The notes under the pieces were generated by a model that saw nothing but the letters and a program-made list of their open reading frames with translations, searched no databases and had not been told where the DNA came from. DNA of 37,204 nucleotides from Psychromonas sp. (GTDB taxonomy: Bacteria > Pseudomonadota > Gammaproteobacteria > Enterobacterales > Psychromonadaceae). The DNA is taken from contig JABXKR010000041.1 in the NCBI GenBank assembly GCA_013619145.1, positions 1-37,204 on the forward strand, written 5' to 3'. Positions 6,455 through 37,204 of this stretch are shown piece after piece; position 1 is the stretch's first letter, and each line of letters starts with the position of its first letter. Position numbers and translations under genes: made by a program.

Positions 6455-8125
6455 TTATTTTGTTTGGTAAGCATCATGATGGATGCCGGCAGCACGACCG
6501 GAAGGATCTGCATTATGTTGGAAACTTTCATCCCAAGCTAATGCTTCAACTGTTGAACAAGCAACAGACTTACCGTGCGGTACACATTCTGCAGCACTAT
6601 CAAGTGGGAAGTGATCAGCAAAAATAGAGCGGTAGAAGTACGCTTCTTTGGTATCAGGCGTATTGATTGGAAACTTAAACTCAGCGCTTGCTAATTGTTG
6701 ATCCGTTACTTGAGTTTCGATATGTTCTTTTAGCGAATCAATCCAGCTATAACCAACACCGTCAGAGAATTGTTCTTTTTGACGCCATAACACTTCGCTT
6801 AACAGCTGCCCATCAAACGCTTCACGTAGAATATTTTTCTCAATACGACCATCTTTGATCATTTTAAGTTCTGGGTTAGTACGCATTGCCACATCTAAGA
6901 ACTCTTTATCTAAGAATGGTACACGCGCTTCAACACCCCAAGCTGACATTGATTTGTTCGCTCGTAAACAGTCAAACATATGCAGTTTGTTTAGTTTACG
7001 GTTTAACTCTTCATGAAACTCTTGCGCATTGGGTGCTTTGTGGAAGTATAAGTAACCACCGAAGATTTCATCCGCGCCTTCACCGGAAAGTACCATCTTG
7101 ATGCCCATCGCTTTAATCTTACGTGCCATCAGGTACATAGGAGTAGAAGCGCGGATCGTTGTTACATCGTATGTTTCTAAGTGATAAATTACTTCACGTA
7201 GTGCATCGATACCATTTTGCTCAGTAAAGATAATCGGGTGATGTACTGTACCTAACTCATCAGCTACTTTTTGTGCAGCTGCTAAATCAGGAGAACCTTC
7301 AAGACCTACAGAGAACGAGTGCAGTTGTGGCCACCAAGCGCCAGATTGATCATCATCTTCAACACGTTGTTTAGCAAATTTCTGCGTGATTGCAGAGATA
7401 ACTGAGGAGTCTAAACCACCAGAAAGTAATACGCCGTATGGCACATCACACATAAGTTGACGTTTAACTGACTCTTCAAGCGCTTGACCGATTTCAGCTG
7501 CGCTACCGTCGTTATCTTTTACCGCATCATATTCCATCCAATCACGAGTGTAATATTGAGTGATTTCACCGATCTCGCTGTCTAAGAAATGCCCTGGTGG
7601 AAACTCTTGAACTTTTGAACAAACAGGCGTTAATGCTTTCATTTCTGATGCAACGTAAAAGTTACCGTGTTCATCCCAACCCATGTAAAGTGGAATGATA
7701 CCCATATGGTCACGACCAATCAGGTATTTATCTTTTTCTGCATCATATAAGCAGAATGCGAAGATACCGTTCAGGTCATCTAAAAAGGTATTACCTTTTT
7801 CTTCGTATAAACCAAGAATAATTTCACAATCAGATTTTGTTTTGAACTGGTAACCGCAGGTTAATTCAGCAGCTAATTCTTTATGATTATAGATTTCACC
7901 ATTAACCGCTAGGATATGTGTATTATTTTGATTGTATAGTGGCTGTGCGCCTGTATTTACGTCGACGATTGAAAGACGTTCATGGACGAGGATAGCTTTA
8001 TCAGACGAGTAAACACCAGACCAATCCGGGCCACGGTGACGAAGCAGTTTAGACATTTCAATTGCTTGCTGGCGCAATGCGATAGGATCGCTTTTAATGT
8101 CGAGCACACCAAAAATAGAACACAT
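6455..8125 (-). CDS. asnB: Asparagine synthetase B, glutamine-hydrolysing
   Basis: Makes asparagine from aspartate, ATP and glutamine in the cytoplasm. The N-terminal glutaminase domain starts with the catalytic Cys2 (MCSIFGV), followed by RHRGPDWSG and VNGEIYNH. The synthetase domain has the ATP pyrophosphatase P-loop LLSGGLDSSVISA near residue 235 and LSGEGADEIFGGYLYFHKAP near residue 350. At 556 residues it matches E. coli AsnB (about 554). It is a single-gene unit: a terminator lies directly downstream, and 208 bp of AT-rich DNA upstream probably hold its promoter, though I could not place convincing -35 and -10 boxes. No odd features. Confidence 0.97.
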   Translation of the reverse strand: MCSIFGVLDIKSDPIALRQQAIEMSKLLRHRGPDWSGVYSSDKAILVHERLSIVDVNTGAQPLYNQNNTHILAVNGEIYNHKELAAELTCGYQFKTKSDCEIILGLYEEKGNTFLDDLNGIFAFCLYDAEKDKYLIGRDHMGIIPLYMGWDEHGNFYVASEMKALTPVCSKVQEFPPGHFLDSEIGEITQYYTRDWMEYDAVKDNDGSAAEIGQALEESVKRQLMCDVPYGVLLSGGLDSSVISAITQKFAKQRVEDDDQSGAWWPQLHSFSVGLEGSPDLAAAQKVADELGTVHHPIIFTEQNGIDALREVIYHLETYDVTTIRASTPMYLMARKIKAMGIKMVLSGEGADEIFGGYLYFHKAPNAQEFHEELNRKLNKLHMFDCLRANKSMSAWGVEARVPFLDKEFLDVAMRTNPELKMIKDGRIEKNILREAFDGQLLSEVLWRQKEQFSDGVGYSWIDSLKEHIETQVTDQQLASAEFKFPINTPDTKEAYFYRSIFADHFPLDSAAECVPHGKSVACSTVEALAWDESFQHNADPSGRAAGIHHDAYQTK

Positions 8126-11965: not shown

Positions 11966-12038
11966 GTCGAAGGTTTTTTAAGCTGTTGCGTTAATAAAAT
12001 AAAGCGTTTCTTAGTAAGTAGAAAGCAGTAAGTTTAAT

Positions 12039-12168
12039 GCTCGTACTGCAGCAAGTTAAAACATCATCCTCACGTAAATATGCCATAGGGAAGTTTGTAT
12101 AATCTATTTTTCCGCTGATTAGTTGGCATCAGGAGGTATCGGCCACATTAACCATATTGTTAGCTGTT
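12039..12168 (-). repeat. 130-bp repeat, copy 1: displaced 3' part of the yfaE gene
   Basis: This 130-bp block matches 12218-12347 at 127 positions. On the minus strand it holds a 38-bp leader of unknown origin (12168-12131), the 54-bp core of the ferredoxin gene (12130-12077), then 38 bp of its C-terminal coding sequence up to the cysteine pair (12076-12039). It breaks off there into unrelated DNA. One codon differs from copy 2 (Asp for Gly). Confidence 0.9.
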
Positions 12169-12184
12169 TGAAAATAATATCAGT

Positions 12185-12309
12185 TTATTGATAAGTGCTA
12201 ATCTTAATATCCTCTTTGCTCGTACTGCAGCAAGTTAAAACATCACCCTCACGTAAATATGCCATAGGGAAGTTTGTATAATCTATTTTTCCGCTGATTA
12301 GTTGGCATC
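12185..12309 (-). pseudogene. Detached C-terminal coding end of the YfaE-like ferredoxin
   Basis: On the minus strand, codons from 12256 read LREGDVLTCCSTSKEDIKIS and end at TAA (12187-12185). This is the natural tail of a YfaE ferredoxin (compare E. coli ILPCCC followed by KGDIEIEM) and holds the fourth cluster cysteine. It is preceded by a second copy of the 54-bp core (12309-12256) that joins in frame. It has no start codon of its own. Joined to the upstream fragment without the 92-bp insertion, the protein would be 84 residues, the same length as E. coli YfaE. Confidence 0.85.
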
Positions 12310-12347
12310 AGGAGGTATCGGCCAGATTAACCATATTGCTAGCTGTT
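12218..12347 (-). repeat. 130-bp repeat, copy 2, abutting the truncated yfaE gene
   Basis: Second copy of the 130-bp unit: leader (12347-12310), 54-bp core (12309-12256), 38-bp coding end (12255-12218). It directly adjoins a third, partial copy, the 54-bp core still inside the gene (12401-12348), which is identical to 12309-12256. The repeat unit between the two cores is 92 bp. Confidence 0.92.
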
Positions 12348-12531
12348 AATATGCCATAGGGAAGTTTGTATAATCTATTTTTCCGCTGATTAGTTGGCAT
12401 CGGCAGGCGCCGCAATGACCGTCTCGGCAGTGAAATTCCACTTTAAGCGCATGTGCTTCTAAATTTTCAAGCAATGTTTTTTGGGTGTTTAAAGGGTATT
12501 CAATACCGTTGACGGTTAATTTTTTGCTCAC
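12346..12531 (-). pseudogene. yfaE: Truncated YfaE-like 2Fe-2S ferredoxin of the nrd operon
   Basis: YfaE donates electrons to assemble and maintain the diferric-tyrosyl radical of NrdB. The 61 codons give a plant-type ferredoxin start with three of four cluster cysteines in CRDGHCGACRC (residues 35-45) and end abruptly after FPMAY at a TAA created by the repeat junction (12348-12346). The family continues about 23 residues further and supplies the fourth cysteine; that tail lies detached at 12256-12185. The gene starts six bases after the nrdB stop, as expected for the last gene of nrdA-nrdB-yfaE. As it stands the product should not hold a normal [2Fe-2S] cluster. Loss of a 92-bp direct-repeat unit would repair it, so it could be a reversible or recent lesion. 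Confidence 0.9.
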
Positions 12532-12537
12532 TAAAGG

Positions 12538-13584
12538 TTACAACTCAAATGAGCTAAGGTCGTCACTATCAACCTTACTGTTAATTTGTCCAACAAGATA
12601 TGAACTGATTTCCGCCTCTTGCGGTGCGACTTGGACGTTGTCGCTGACTAACCAATGGTTAATCCATGGGATAGGATTTGATTTCACTGCAAATGGTGCT
12701 TCGTAACCGATCGCCTGCATACGCTGGTTAGAAATATATTCAACATATTGGCATAAAATCTGTTCATTAAGACCGATCATTGAGCCATCTTTAAACAGGT
12801 ATTTTGCCCACTCTTTTTCCTGCTCTGCCGCTTGCAGGAATATTTCACGACCTTCGCCAAAACATTCAATGGCAACTTCGGCCATCTCCGGATCATCTTT
12901 ACCCCGCTCTGCGAATGCAAATGAACAAGCAAAAGAAACATAAAAACGAATCGCTTCTAATGCGTTGATTGAGCAGATACAAAGATACAATTTTTTCTTT
13001 AGCGAGCGCAGTGTCAGTTTTTCTTTGCTGCCGTGCAGGTTGATGTAATCAATCTCTGTTTGTTCTAAACCATGCAGTTGAGAAAACTGCGTCGCATGGA
13101 TCAGTTGATCATAATAACCGGCAATATCGGAAGCCCGCTTTTGAATCTCTTCATTGGTGACGATATCTTCAAATACTTCACTTGGATCGGTAAACAGATT
13201 ACGTAAAATATGTGTGTAGCTACGACTGTGAATTGTTTCAGAGAATGACCATGTTTCGATCCATGTTTCCAGCTCTGGTAATGAAACAATCGGAAGCAGG
13301 GCGATGTTCGGGCTGCGACCTTGAATTGAATCAAGCAATGTTTGATATTTTAAGTTGGAGATAAAAATATGCTGCTCATGATCTGGCAAGTTTGAAAAAT
13401 CGATACGATCGCGACTGACATCAATCTCTTCAGGACGCCAGAAGAAGCTTAGTTGTTTCTCAATCAGTTTTTCAAATACTTCAAAACGTTGTTGGTCATA
13501 ACGGGCAACATTAACCGGATTACCAAAAAACATCGGTTCTTTAAGTGCATTATTGGCGATTTTTGAGAACGTTGTATAAGCCAT
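12538..13584 (-). CDS. nrdB: Class Ia ribonucleotide reductase beta subunit, with in-frame internal deletion
   Basis: NrdB carries the diiron-tyrosyl radical that starts ribonucleotide reduction in NrdA. Most of the protein is very close to E. coli NrdB: Trp49 in FFWRPEE, iron ligands Asp85 (LLDSIQG), Glu116 and His119 (SETIHSRSY), radical Tyr123, and Glu210 (NALEAIRF). However FAFAER is followed at once by GKDDPEMAE (junction near 12903/12904). The 33-35 residues that E. coli has there are gone, including Asp237, Glu238 and His241 (E. coli mature numbering). The product is 348 residues against 376, the difference including a five-residue insertion near 180. The reading frame is kept. The protein probably cannot form a normal Fe2 site. 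Ribosome binding site GGAGAGG is good. Confidence 0.93.
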
Positions 13585-13693: not shown

Positions 13694-15961
13694 TTAAATT
13701 TTACATGCACCGCCGGCACAATCATCTTCGATGACTTTTTCATCGTCTGCACCGTCACGTGTATTATGGTAATAGAGTGTTTTCACACCCATTTTATAGG
13801 CAACCAGCAGATCTTTTAACAGATTGGTCATCGGCACTTTACCATCATCAAAACGTTTAGGATCATAGTTGGTATTGGCTGATATTGCCTGGTCGACAAA
13901 TTTCTGCATGATACCGACTAGTTCTAAATATCCCTGGTTATTTGGAATATCCCATAACAGTTCGTAATTTTCTTTATACTTTTCAAACTCAGGCACAACT
14001 TGTTTTAAAATACCGTCTTTACTCGCTTTAACACTGATAAAACCGCGTGGTGGTTCAATTCCATTGGTTGCGTTAGAGATTTGACTTGATGTTTCTGACG
14101 GCATTAATGCTGAAAGTGTGGAGTTACGTAAACCATCTTTAACAATATCTGCGCGCAGCGTTTCCCAGTCTAAGTGGTACTGTTCATCACAGATATCATC
14201 TAATGCTTTTTTGTAGGTATCGAGCGGTAAAATACCCTGTGAGTAACGTGTCTCATTAAATTTAGGGCAGGCACCGCGCTCTTTAGCAAGCTTGTTTGAC
14301 GCTTTTAACAGATAAAATTGAATCGCTTCAAATGTTTTGTGGGTTAAGTTATTGGCACTACCGTCTGAGTATTTAACGCCATTTTTAGCTAAGTAATAAG
14401 CGTAGTTGATAACCCCTATGCCGAGTGTGCGGCGCGCCATACTGCTGTTTTCAGCTGCTTTAATCGGGTAGTCCTGGTAATCTAATAAGTTATCTAATGC
14501 GCGAACCGCCAGCTCTGAAAGCTCTTCTAATTCATCAAGTGAATCAATGGCACCTAAGTTCAGCGCTGAAAGGGTACATAAAGCGATTTCACCCTCTTCG
14601 TCCATAATATGCTGCAGAGGTTTAGTCGGCAGGGCAATTTCTAAACATAAGTTACTTTGGCGAATCGGCGCAACTTTACTGTCAAATGGGCTGTGTGTAT
14701 TGCAGTGGTCAACATTTTGAATATAGATACGTCCTGTACTGGCACGCTCCTGCATCAGTAATGAGAATAACTCAACAGCAGGAATTGAACTTTGACGGAT
14801 ACTCTTATCACCTTCATATAAGGTATATAAACGTTCAAATTCATCTTGATCTTCAAAGAACGCATCATATAAACCGGGTACATCAGATGGACTAAATAGG
14901 GTAATTGATTTTCGGTCAATCAGGCGTTGATAGAATAAACGACCTAACTGCACACCATAATCTAAATGGCGAACACGGTTTGAATCGATGCCACGGTTAT
15001 TTTTGAGAACTAATAAAGATTCAACTTCAAGATGCCAAATCGGATAGAAAACCGTTGCCGCACCACCCCGAACACCACCTTGCGAACATGATTTCACAGC
15101 TGTTTGGAAGTATTTATAAAATGGAATACAACCGGTATGGAATGCTTCACCACCACGGATTGTGCTACCTAATGCACGAATTCGTCCTGCATTGATACCG
15201 ATACCTGCACGTTGGGATACATATTTTACAATTGAGCTTGCTGTCGCATTGATTGAATCTAAGCTATCACCCGTTTCAATCAATACACATGAGCTAAATT
15301 GACGAGTAGGTGTACGAACGCCTGCCATAATAGGTGTTGGTAGTGATATTTTAAATTGAGAGGCTGCGTCATAAAAACGTTTAACGTAATCTAAACGTAC
15401 CGATTTATCGTAATCTGAAAATAAGCAGGCAGACACTAACAGGTAAAGAAATTGTGCACTTTCGTAAATTTCACCTGTTACGCGGTTTTGAATCAGGTAT
15501 TTACCTTCAAGCTGTTTAACTGCACCATATGAGAAGTTTAAATCACGATTATGAACGATGAATTTCTCCATCTCTTCGAATTCTTTCTTGCTGTAGTCTT
15601 CAAGCAGGTGTGCATCATACTTACCTTTTGAACACATTTTACTGACATGTTCAAAAACGCTTGGTGGTGTAAACCGTTGATACGCCTTTTTACGCAGATG
15701 AAATACAGCGAGGTGAGCCGCAAGATACTGGTAGTCGGGGGACTCTTCTGAAATGAGATCTGCAGCCGCTTTGATAATTGTCTCATGAATATCTTCGGTA
15801 CGAATACCATCATAAAACTGAATATGTGAATTTAACTCAACCTGTGAGACCGAAACATTGCTCAGACCTTCCGCCGCCCAAGTGATAACACGGTGAATTT
15901 TTTCAAGATCGATACTTTCTCTCTTACCATTACGTTTGGTGACAAACAGGTTTTTATTCAT
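13694..15961 (-). CDS. nrdA: Class Ia ribonucleotide reductase alpha subunit
   Basis: The catalytic subunit that reduces ribonucleoside diphosphates, 755 residues (E. coli 761). An N-terminal ATP-cone (about residues 5-95; VTKRNGKRESIDLEKIHRVI) controls activity by ATP/dATP. Catalytic residues are all visible: the redox Cys in RQFSSCVLIE (E. coli Cys225), SNLCLEIALPT (Asn437, Cys439, Glu441), ALCTLSALNLG (Cys462), the radical-path Tyr pair in TLYYHNTRDGA, and the C-terminal swinging cysteines in DDCAGGACKI. The gene looks fully functional, unlike its partners nrdB and yfaE downstream. NrdR-like and DnaA-like boxes lie 65-170 bp upstream, as expected for cell-cycle and dATP-linked control. Confidence 0.97.
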   Translation of the reverse strand: MNKNLFVTKRNGKRESIDLEKIHRVITWAAEGLSNVSVSQVELNSHIQFYDGIRTEDIHETIIKAAADLISEESPDYQYLAAHLAVFHLRKKAYQRFTPPSVFEHVSKMCSKGKYDAHLLEDYSKKEFEEMEKFIVHNRDLNFSYGAVKQLEGKYLIQNRVTGEIYESAQFLYLLVSACLFSDYDKSVRLDYVKRFYDAASQFKISLPTPIMAGVRTPTRQFSSCVLIETGDSLDSINATASSIVKYVSQRAGIGINAGRIRALGSTIRGGEAFHTGCIPFYKYFQTAVKSCSQGGVRGGAATVFYPIWHLEVESLLVLKNNRGIDSNRVRHLDYGVQLGRLFYQRLIDRKSITLFSPSDVPGLYDAFFEDQDEFERLYTLYEGDKSIRQSSIPAVELFSLLMQERASTGRIYIQNVDHCNTHSPFDSKVAPIRQSNLCLEIALPTKPLQHIMDEEGEIALCTLSALNLGAIDSLDELEELSELAVRALDNLLDYQDYPIKAAENSSMARRTLGIGVINYAYYLAKNGVKYSDGSANNLTHKTFEAIQFYLLKASNKLAKERGACPKFNETRYSQGILPLDTYKKALDDICDEQYHLDWETLRADIVKDGLRNSTLSALMPSETSSQISNATNGIEPPRGFISVKASKDGILKQVVPEFEKYKENYELLWDIPNNQGYLELVGIMQKFVDQAISANTNYDPKRFDDGKVPMTNLLKDLLVAYKMGVKTLYYHNTRDGADDEKVIEDDCAGGACKI

Positions 15962-17958: not shown

Positions 17959-20490
17959 ATGAGCGAATTTGCCTCTGACGTTTCTCCAATCAACATTGAA
18001 GATGAATTAAAGAACTCTTATCTTGATTATGCAATGAGCGTAATTGTCGGGCGTGCATTGCCTGACGTGCGTGATGGTCTTAAACCGGTTCACCGCCGTG
18101 TCTTATTTGCAATGAGTGTATTGCGTAATGACTGGAACAAACCCTATAAAAAATCAGCACGTGTTGTTGGTGATGTAATTGGTAAATATCACCCGCATGG
18201 TGATACTGCGGTATACGATACCATTGTTCGTATGGCTCAGCCTTTCTCTTTACGCTATATGCTGGTTGACGGACAAGGTAACTTCGGTTCTGTCGATGGT
18301 GATAGTGCTGCGGCGATGCGTTATACGGAAATCCGTATGGACAAAATCGCGCATGAGATATTAGCCGATTTAGATAAAGAAACGGTCGATTTTGTGCCTA
18401 ACTATGACGGTACAGAATTTATTCCTGAAGTAATGCCAACGAAAGTGCCTAACTTGCTAGTTAATGGTTCATCAGGTATCGCAGTCGGTATGGCAACCAA
18501 TATTCCACCACATAATTTGGGTGAAGTGATCGATGGTTGTTTAGCATTAATTGAAAATCCCGAACTAACCATTAATGAACTGATTGAATACATTCCAGGA
18601 CCCGATTTCCCGACAGCTGGTATTATTAATGGCCGTAAAGGCATTGTTGATGGCTACCATACGGGGCGCGGTAAAGTAAAAATTCGTGCTAAAGCGGATA
18701 TTGAAGTTAATGATAAAACAGGTCGTGAAACCATTGTTGTTCATGAGCTGCCTTACCAGGTTAATAAAGCACGTCTAATCGAAAAAATTGCTGAGCTGGT
18801 AAAAGATAAAAAAATTGAGGGGATCAGTGCCCTGCGTGATGAGTCAGACAAAGACGGCATGCGCATGGTGGTTGAAGTGAAACGTGGTGAAGTGGGGGAG
18901 GTGATTTTAAATAACCTTTACGCACAAACACAGATGCAGGTTTCATTTGGTATTAATGCGGTGGCATTAGATCACGGTCAACCAAAACTGTTTAACCTCA
19001 AAGAGATGTTAGAAGCGTTTATCTTGCATCGTCGCGAAGTGGTGACACGCCGCACCGTATTTGAGCTGAAAAAAGCTCGCGATCGCGCCCATATCCTCGA
19101 AGGTTTAGCTATTTCACTGGCTAATATCGAACCTATCATTAAGCTTATTCGCCACTCGGCAACGCCAGCAGAAGCAAAAATCGCCCTGCAATCACAAGGT
19201 TGGGAACTCGGTAATGTAGCAGCGATGCTTGAAGCCTCTGGGGTTGATGCGGCTCGTCCTGATGGGTTGGCCATTGAGTTTGGCGTGCGTGATAACAGTT
19301 ATTATATGACTGAAGTGCAAGCACAGGCGATTCTGGATCTGCGTTTACATAAATTAACCGGTCTTGAGCACGAGAAAATCTTAAGTGAATATAAAGAGCT
19401 GTTAGATATTATCGCGGCACTGTTGTTCATTTTAGAAAATCCAGCGCGTTTAATGGAAGTGATTCGTGAAGAGCTAGAAGAGATTCGTGCTAACTTTGGC
19501 GATCCTCGTCGTACCGAAATTACCGCGAGTGAAGCTGATCTTTGTATGGAAGATTTGATTAACGAAGAAGATGTGGTGGTGACGCTTTCTCATGAAGGTT
19601 ACGTTAAATACCAACCGTTAACGGATTACGAAGCGCAGCGCCGTGGTGGTAAAGGTAAATCAGCAACTAAAATGAAAGATGAAGATTTCATCGAAAAACT
19701 CTTAGTTGCCAGTACCCACGATACGATTTTATGTTTCTCTACTCGCGGCCGTTTATATTGGTTGAAAGTATTCCAATTACCACTGGCTTCTCGTCAGGCT
19801 CGCGGTCGTCCAATCGTCAATATCTTGCCGCTGGAAGAGGGCGAACGTATCACTGCGATTCTACCTGTGCGTGAATATGAAGATGATAAGTTTGTGTTTA
19901 TGGCAACCGCCAACGGTACAGTTAAGAAAACCGCATTAAGTGCTTACAGCCGTCCGCGTGCAAGTGGTTTGATTGCCATTAACTTAAATGAAGACAATGA
20001 GTTAATCGGTGCGCAAATAACTAATGGTGAAAATGAGATCATGATTTTCTCTGATGCAGGTAAAGTTGTGCGCTTTAAAGAAGCGGAAGAAACTACCGTA
20101 ACTGATGAAGATGGTAATGTTGTTTTAGATGAAAATGGTACTAAGAGCCGTGCAACGCAAGGTGTTATCTCAATCAAAGTGAGTGAGCGTAACGGTAAAG
20201 TTGTTGGTGCCGTACAGGTTGATGATAATGATGAGATCATGCTTATATCTAATAAAGGTACATTAGTTCGTACACCTGTTGGTGGCGTGTCTGTGGTCGG
20301 ACGTAATACTCAAGGTGTAACACTTATCAAAACACGCGAAGATGAACAGATTGTAGCTTTGCAGCGCATTGATGAAATCAAAGATCTGCCTGTTTATGAA
20401 GAGGAAGGCGAGGCTGTTGAAAATCAGACGGAACAAGCGGTTTCTGAAAATGAGACCGTAACTGACGAATCCTCAGAATCCCAAGAATAA
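17959..20490 (+). CDS. gyrA: DNA gyrase subunit A
   Basis: The DNA-cleaving subunit of gyrase, which introduces negative supercoils with GyrB. It is 843 residues (E. coli 875). The winged-helix/tower part contains the active-site tyrosine in [10 protein letters not shown] (Tyr122 equivalent) and the quinolone-binding region [20 protein letters not shown]. The C-terminal beta-pinwheel begins near residue 530 and carries the GyrA box QRRGGKG needed for DNA wrapping. The tail is acidic, as usual. Residue 83 is Thr where E. coli has Ser; Thr is the normal state in some genera, so it is not proof of resistance. It is transcribed alone, ending at a strong terminator before serC. Confidence 0.98.
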
Positions 20491-36346: not shown

Positions 36347-37146
36347 TAATTTATCTGCCATTCAGATGGTCAGTGTTAGCTCTCCGGCAACGAATTTATC
36401 CTGTTTGAAAAAGTTGTTAGAGAAGTTGTCTCCAGCTGCAAATCAGTTAGTTTTATTACCGGAGAATGCGCTGAGTTTTGCAGATAAAAAGACCTATTTA
36501 TCATTAGCTGAAAACTTAGGAGATGGTTATTTTCAATCTCAATTAGGAAATTTAGCAAAACAGTATCAATGTTATTTAGTGTGTGGCAGTTTCCCGATTA
36601 AAAGCAGGCAAAGCGATAAGATCTTTACCACAAGTTTGGTTTTTTCACCGCAGGGTAAATTAATCAGCCATTATCATAAAATTCATCTGTTTGATGCCTT
36701 GGTTACAGATCAAAAAGGGCTGTATAAGGAATCTGATACCTTTATTGCCGGTCAGGATATTCAGCTATTTGATTATTGGCTCGATTCTTCAGTTTCAGTC
36801 AAAGTTGGCCTGGCTATCTGTTATGATTTACGTTTTCCCGCTCTGTTTCAAACGTTACGTGCACAAGGGGCTGATATTATATTATTACCCGCCGCTTTTA
36901 CTAAAGTAACTGGAGAGGCGCATTGGCTTCCTTTGCTGCAAGCTCGAGCGATTGAAAACCAATGTTATATTATCGCCGCTAATCAAGGTGGTTTACACCC
37001 GTGTGGCCGAGAAACATTTGGGCATTCGATGATCATTTCTCCGTGGGGAGAAGTGCTTAGCCAACTGCAATTAGGGGAAGGTGTTATTCAAGCTCCATTT
37101 GCAAAGCAACTCCTTGAAAAAGTTCGCCAGGCAATGCCTGTTATAT
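36339..37146 (+). CDS. Carbon-nitrogen hydrolase (nitrilase superfamily), 3' end cut by artefactual palindrome
   Basis: A Nit/YbeM-type amidase. Glu-Lys-Cys catalytic residues are all visible: Glu in LVLLPENALSF, Lys in HYHKIHLFDA, Cys in GLAICYDLRFPAL. The usual ending (FGHSMIISPWGEVLSQLQLG) follows. Start taken as GTG 36339, which overlaps the yhdP end by eight bases; GTG 36330 is an alternative. Family members after yhdP are probably omega-amidases or deaminated glutathione amidases, but the substrate is not shown. True sequence ends near 37146 (last natural residues QAMPV); the following 58 bases are an exact inverted copy of this gene, so the real C-terminus is not in the window. Confidence 0.9.
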
Positions 37147-37204
37147 GGCATTGCCTGGCGAACTTTTTCAAGGAGTTGCTTTGCAAATGGAGCTTGAATA
37201 ACAC
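37081..37204. repeat. Perfect 58-bp inverted repeat at the window end
   Basis: 37081-37138 is repeated exactly, inverted, at 37147-37204, with eight bases (TGTTATAT) between. Both arms are coding sequence of the nitrilase-family gene, and the right arm ends exactly at the window edge. A hairpin of this kind inside a gene at a contig end is typical of an inverted chimera from multiple-displacement amplification or of an assembly error, not of biology. Confidence 0.95.

Follow-up and report, generated by a model that had tools for sequence, protein, structure and literature searches.

An in-frame 99-bp gap in the nrdB gene of a Psychromonas draft genome, a probable technical lesion

We analyzed a contig of 37,204 nucleotides (hereafter the window; JABXKR010000041.1 of assembly GCA_013619145.1, Psychromonas sp.) in which nrdB, the gene of the beta subunit of the class Ia ribonucleotide reductase (RNR), lacks 99 bp. 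We consider this gap to be a technical lesion, which arose in the DNA that was sequenced or in its assembly, rather than an evolved R2 protein, with a probability of roughly 0.57. The deletion is directly observed, as are its absence from the parsed congeners, the lack of decay in the rest of nrdB, and the other lesions of the same genome. The nrdB gap would be one of several losses or replacements of 0.1-0.3 kb in otherwise pristine conserved genes of a draft assembly. We favor a technical origin because several conserved genes show such sub-kilobase losses with little point decay, and because the assembly is fragmentary.

The nrdB gene lies at 12538..13584 on the reverse strand and encodes 348 residues. 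It matches the family profile of class Ia beta subunits (NCBIfam NF006576, 616.7 bits for a cut-off of 346, over two stretches) and has nrdA as a neighbor, which together identify it as such a subunit. When aligned with the E. coli NrdB (7ai8_A), the match is broken into residues 1-228 and 226-348. At the junction (12901..12906, reverse strand), codon 227 (CGG, Arg) is directly followed by codon 228 (GGT, Gly), between window positions 12904 and 12903, and FAFAER runs into GKDDPEMAE. A reading of this DNA made from the sequence only had described this joint and a clean in-frame deletion removing two of the six metal ligands. The alignments with E. coli and with the congeners confirm this, but the size had to be corrected: instead of 35 residues, exactly 33 (99 bp) are missing relative to the 22 parsed congener NrdBs, of which 20 have 381 aa and 2 have 382 aa. 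The upstream neighbor nrdA, encoding the alpha subunit (13694..15961, reverse strand, 755 aa, 1526.1 bits with NF006578), is intact, as had been noted, since it aligns end to end with the E. coli R1.

Apart from the gap and a few residues inserted at about 170-185, the protein aligns with the E. coli class Ia NrdB over its full length, and it shares with it the nrdA partner and a downstream yfaE-like gene. The residues at 49, 85, 116, 119, 123, 210, and 329 match E. coli W48, D84, E115, H118, Y122, E204, and Y356, which agrees with the earlier observation that Asp84, Glu115, His118, Glu204, and Tyr122 are kept. The radical tyrosine is found after the EXXH motif of core helix 2 (E116-T-I-H119...Y123) and the C-terminal tail is retained. 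What distinguishes the protein is the loss of the 33 residues with D237, E238, and H241 (numbering without Met1), which we take to form the D-E-x-x-H motif of E. coli NrdB. Judging from presumed helix limits, the lost segment would correspond to one of the four core helices. Class Ia beta subunits, as we define them, have six metal ligands, supplied by a pair of D/E motifs and a pair of EXXH motifs; NrdB is left with 4/6 ligands and its fourth metal-binding motif is gone. The radical path W48/D237/Y356 is also broken: W49 and Y329 are present, but D237 lies in the deleted block. According to PMC8463856, the four core helices of a class Ia beta subunit supply one D/E or EXXH metal motif each. 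As the fourth motif is deleted, the short protein, as written, should not be able to form a normal diiron-tyrosyl radical cofactor, and the earlier structural reasoning to this effect, from the loss of two of six ligands, holds. The gene product would be inactive, the core helix with the EXXH motif (Glu238 and His241) and Asp237 having been lost.

One might still imagine that the short NrdB is functional, either as a smaller R2 whose metal site is changed or as an inactive beta-prime scaffold. The kept frame, Tyr122, Trp48, Tyr356, four ligands, and C-terminal tail would fit such a role, as would the purifying selection on the remainder of the gene (see below). Yeast Rnr4 is an inactive beta-prime subunit that partners an active beta. 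NrdB resembles it in being a beta-family protein that misses iron ligands, but we found no second chromosomal beta with which it could form a heterodimer, in a genome that is 85.6% complete, and it cannot be assigned to this type. The absence of what is presumably one of four core helices also argues against function. The metal-free R2 proteins of class Ie (VPK/QSK) have an incomplete set of metal ligands too. However, PMC11846895 describes these proteins as having three ligand glutamates substituted and not as lacking a helix, whereas NrdB loses a whole segment and keeps the remaining ligands (E116 and E210) unchanged, which places it outside class Ie. The unusual use of metals that had been proposed for this protein finds no support. 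Added to this, the exact joint was found in no R2 gene of a species-level collection (see below). We regard a functional R2 lacking the helix as very unlikely, and as the least likely of all the readings.

The rest of nrdB looks normal. Its dN/dS is 0.025 relative to the congener G002, compared with 0.023 between G002 and G007, and it departs from the other sequences at 1 of the 244 columns invariant among them, where congeners have 0 to 13 departures. Neither measure shows relaxed selection or decay outside the gap. Hence, the lesion either arose very recently or is absent from the living gene. This full constraint is expected if the lesion is technical and argues against a real loss of function.

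To assess whether the short form exists elsewhere, we compared the gene with its relatives, as the sequence-only reading had suggested, and found it in 0/22 of the parsed congener NrdBs, contrary to the idea of a form shared by close relatives. The genome of G020 (51% complete) had no NrdB match. We also searched a degenerate pattern of the exact joint in a collection of one genome per species (84,980 species, contigs of at least 3,000 bases; it may lack records close to that of the window). This gave 5 matches, 0 of them in an R2 gene upon translation; the pattern covers the exact joint alone and not R2 deletions with other ends. Searches of the assembly with the short NrdB itself, with a congener NrdB of full length, and with the Pfam R2 model found neither the missing 33 residues nor a second chromosomal nrdB. 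The full-length congener NrdB matched the two halves of nrdB and, weakly (24%), a phage-like R2, and nothing else, so that no other part of the assembly contains the missing piece. One congener, G009, has a second and divergent NrdB (C1, 244779-245906; L024), which is not among the 22 parsed. It is matched in two pieces, 66% and 57% identical, and it is not short, since these are 90 bases apart in a frame of 381 aa.

Several other conserved genes of this genome are affected in a comparable manner. Within the window, gyrA (17959..20490, forward strand, 843 aa) has an in-frame deletion of 180 bp near 20138-20143, which removes 60 residues of the C-terminal propeller; its open frame has 845 aa against 907-941 in 23/23 congeners. 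On contig C86 (L040, 8921-11086), an in-frame loss of 111 bp deprives ClpA of 37 residues, presumably directly before the Walker A motif of the second ATPase domain. Its frame has 722 aa, compared with 754-784 in the 21/23 congeners where it is continuous; it is fragmented in G022 and G020, and in G022, a single-contig genome, it spreads over three frames (C1, 258242-260499). Two further genes, whose names are our presumption, were hit elsewhere. Near 5472 of C38, a DAHP-synthase-like gene has lost some 283 bp out of frame (estimated relative to G010), and in a PTS EIIB-like gene (C33, near 7612-7695) the N-terminal part has given way to 79 bp copied exactly from the EIIC-like gene that follows it. 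Among the four explanations initially put forward for the nrdB gap, an assembly deletion therefore fits best, because gyrA, clpA, the DAHP-synthase-like gene, yfaE, and the PTS gene carry comparable lesions. The fact that 3/4 of the measured gene-internal deletions are in frame is, on the other hand, a point against a technical origin.

We then evaluated how common small lesions are in this genome by comparing 722 kb of it (a small part masked) with 1.2 Mb of G010, which resulted in 155 comparisons of orthologues (at least 40% identity and 80 bits), 134 of them with at least 60% identity. They revealed a single apparent small frameshift: near 3275 of C50, a G010 gene of 376 aa is matched (46% identity) in two pieces that are in different frames. 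The sole stop codon within a match is upstream of the start of gyrA and is also present in the controls. Natural pseudogenes accumulate small frameshifts and internal stops, and one apparent frameshift in 155 comparisons suggests that the lesions are not ordinary pseudogene decay, in line with a technical cause. Gaps of at least 8 aa were found in 0/103 control comparisons with at least 60% identity (253 kb in 13 congeners), which points in the same direction, although these controls come from one neighborhood and are not independent. The frameshift in C50, together with a weaker possible one in a 202-aa gene of C26 that falls below the later cut-offs, indicates in turn that some ordinary decay may exist. 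Not counted among the lesions are a 31-aa deletion on C41 and an 8-aa deletion on C43, both in matches with an identity of only about 40%, nor insertions that span 8-11 aa or additional pieces belonging to paralogues. A gene of C46, presumably GTPase-like, has an altered C-terminus and was also left out.

The state of the assembly is consistent with a technical origin. It comprises 336 contigs totaling 3.95 Mb and its completeness of 85.6% is lower than the 99-100% observed in 20/23 congeners. The window's contig ends with an exact inverted repeat of 58 bp around an 8-base loop (37081..37204). The second arm of this repeat extends to the contig's very end, which is what a fold-back chimera would look like. 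The match with G007 reaches as far as 37138, the base that immediately precedes the loop. Such structures are rare among the 98 contig ends examined (12 masked ends having been dropped), where we found one long fold-back, that of the window's contig, and one other match of 16 nt. We considered chimeras made by multiple displacement amplification as the cause of the gaps, but they are not well supported, because published short direct joins are rare: in PMC1855051, inversions make up 406/475 chimeras and direct joins of less than 10 kb just 11. The predominance of inversions and the single long fold-back thus count against this kind of technical lesion. A collapse of repeats was rejected, since the microhomology at the nrdB joint, predicted from the 22 congeners, is of 1-2 nt, too little for a simple collapse to explain the gap. 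An assembler working with k=55 was dropped as well, the sole measured end-to-end overlap between contigs being of 69 bp.

The joint nearly devoid of homology fits the second-ranked reading, namely that the deletion is real and that function was lost very recently, with an aerobic RNR that is dead or dispensable in the strain's habitat and dNTPs provided by the class III enzyme NrdDG. We regard this as possible but less probable than a technical lesion. Such joints are most easily made in real DNA molecules. The genes nrdD (frame of 736 aa) and nrdG are adjacent on C86, and a strain without aerobic RNR could thus presumably grow anaerobically. Except for a phage-like pair, the Pfam R2 and R1-barrel models revealed no other RNR (class Ib or II), but these two models do not include that of the NrdJ family, and in an incomplete genome such absences are weak evidence. 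A real loss would also be in agreement with at least one other gene being seemingly frameshifted (C50) and with the truncation of the ferredoxin that maintains NrdB. It is at odds with the unrelaxed constraint on nrdB, with the intact nrdA, and with the damage of the same type in gyrA. The latter gene is, as a rule, essential. The sequence-only reading had offered a strain relying on another RNR as one explanation, and had recommended to search for one: the presence of nrdD and nrdG makes this possible. No second chromosomal nrdB was found, and the one further class I pair detected lies on C210, which is short and resembles a phage. This contig (L039, 3,535 bp) has an R2 with the motifs ETIH...Y and RDESLH and the start of an R1 that runs off its end. 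One might suppose that this phage-type class I RNR stands in for a dead host R2. Yet, nothing ties C210 to the chromosome, its R1 is partial, and it is short and phage-like, with a best phage match of 51% identity (Cellulophaga phage phi14:2) and all of the 1086 matched records below 60%. It may be a contaminant of the bin or a co-sequenced phage, and we find a replacement of this type improbable.

The distinction matters. A real deletion in a protein that is still active would contradict the rule by which class I beta subunits make their oxidant in a core of four helices; a real deletion with an inactive product would mean that aerobic RNR had been lost naturally and recently. If it is technical, as we favor, it is mainly a warning that conserved enzymes can show clean in-frame deletions that stem from a draft assembly in which similar lesions are more widespread. 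Such artefacts are quickly exposed by inspecting the neighboring core genes.

The region downstream of nrdB is less easily ascribed to technical causes. The yfaE-like ferredoxin (12346..12531, reverse strand) is truncated to 61 aa and scores 60.8 bits with NF007985, below the cut-off of 75. It keeps C35, C40, and C43 (and C45) but has lost the C-terminal part with LTCC. In 18/22 congeners, the stop-to-stop frames of yfaE have 83-94 aa; in three others it was not found by motif and one reads N. The truncation falls among repeats of the gene's 3' end, tandem partial copies of which lie at 12038..12407 (reverse strand). The starts of the copies are spaced by 179 and 92 bp, and this difference points to a loss of 87 bp in the first unit. 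G002 has its own array at the same site, with a spacing of 149 bp, while G007 reads N there. Diverged tandem copies that also occur in G002 look like real biology, which speaks against a purely technical cause. One can conceive that all the lesions are real, and that this Psychromonas-like lineage is a rearrangement mutator, prone to deletions of 0.1-0.3 kb, tandem copies, and templated replacements, that has just lost its aerobic RNR. The process would be visible in the repeated gene 3' ends and in the fresh holes in nrdB, yfaE, gyrA, and clpA. We consider this unlikely. Tandem copies of gene 3' ends, some of them diverged, are also found on C14 (16330-16624 and 21999-22350), C86 (30241-30666), and C4 (9350-9560), after genes that we take to be fliG-, fliL-, rlmE-, and rpoD-like. 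Short local repeats are inside genes at 4/15 loci in the window's genome (G000), where 60% would be expected at random, and at 4/26 loci in G010, where 71% would be expected.
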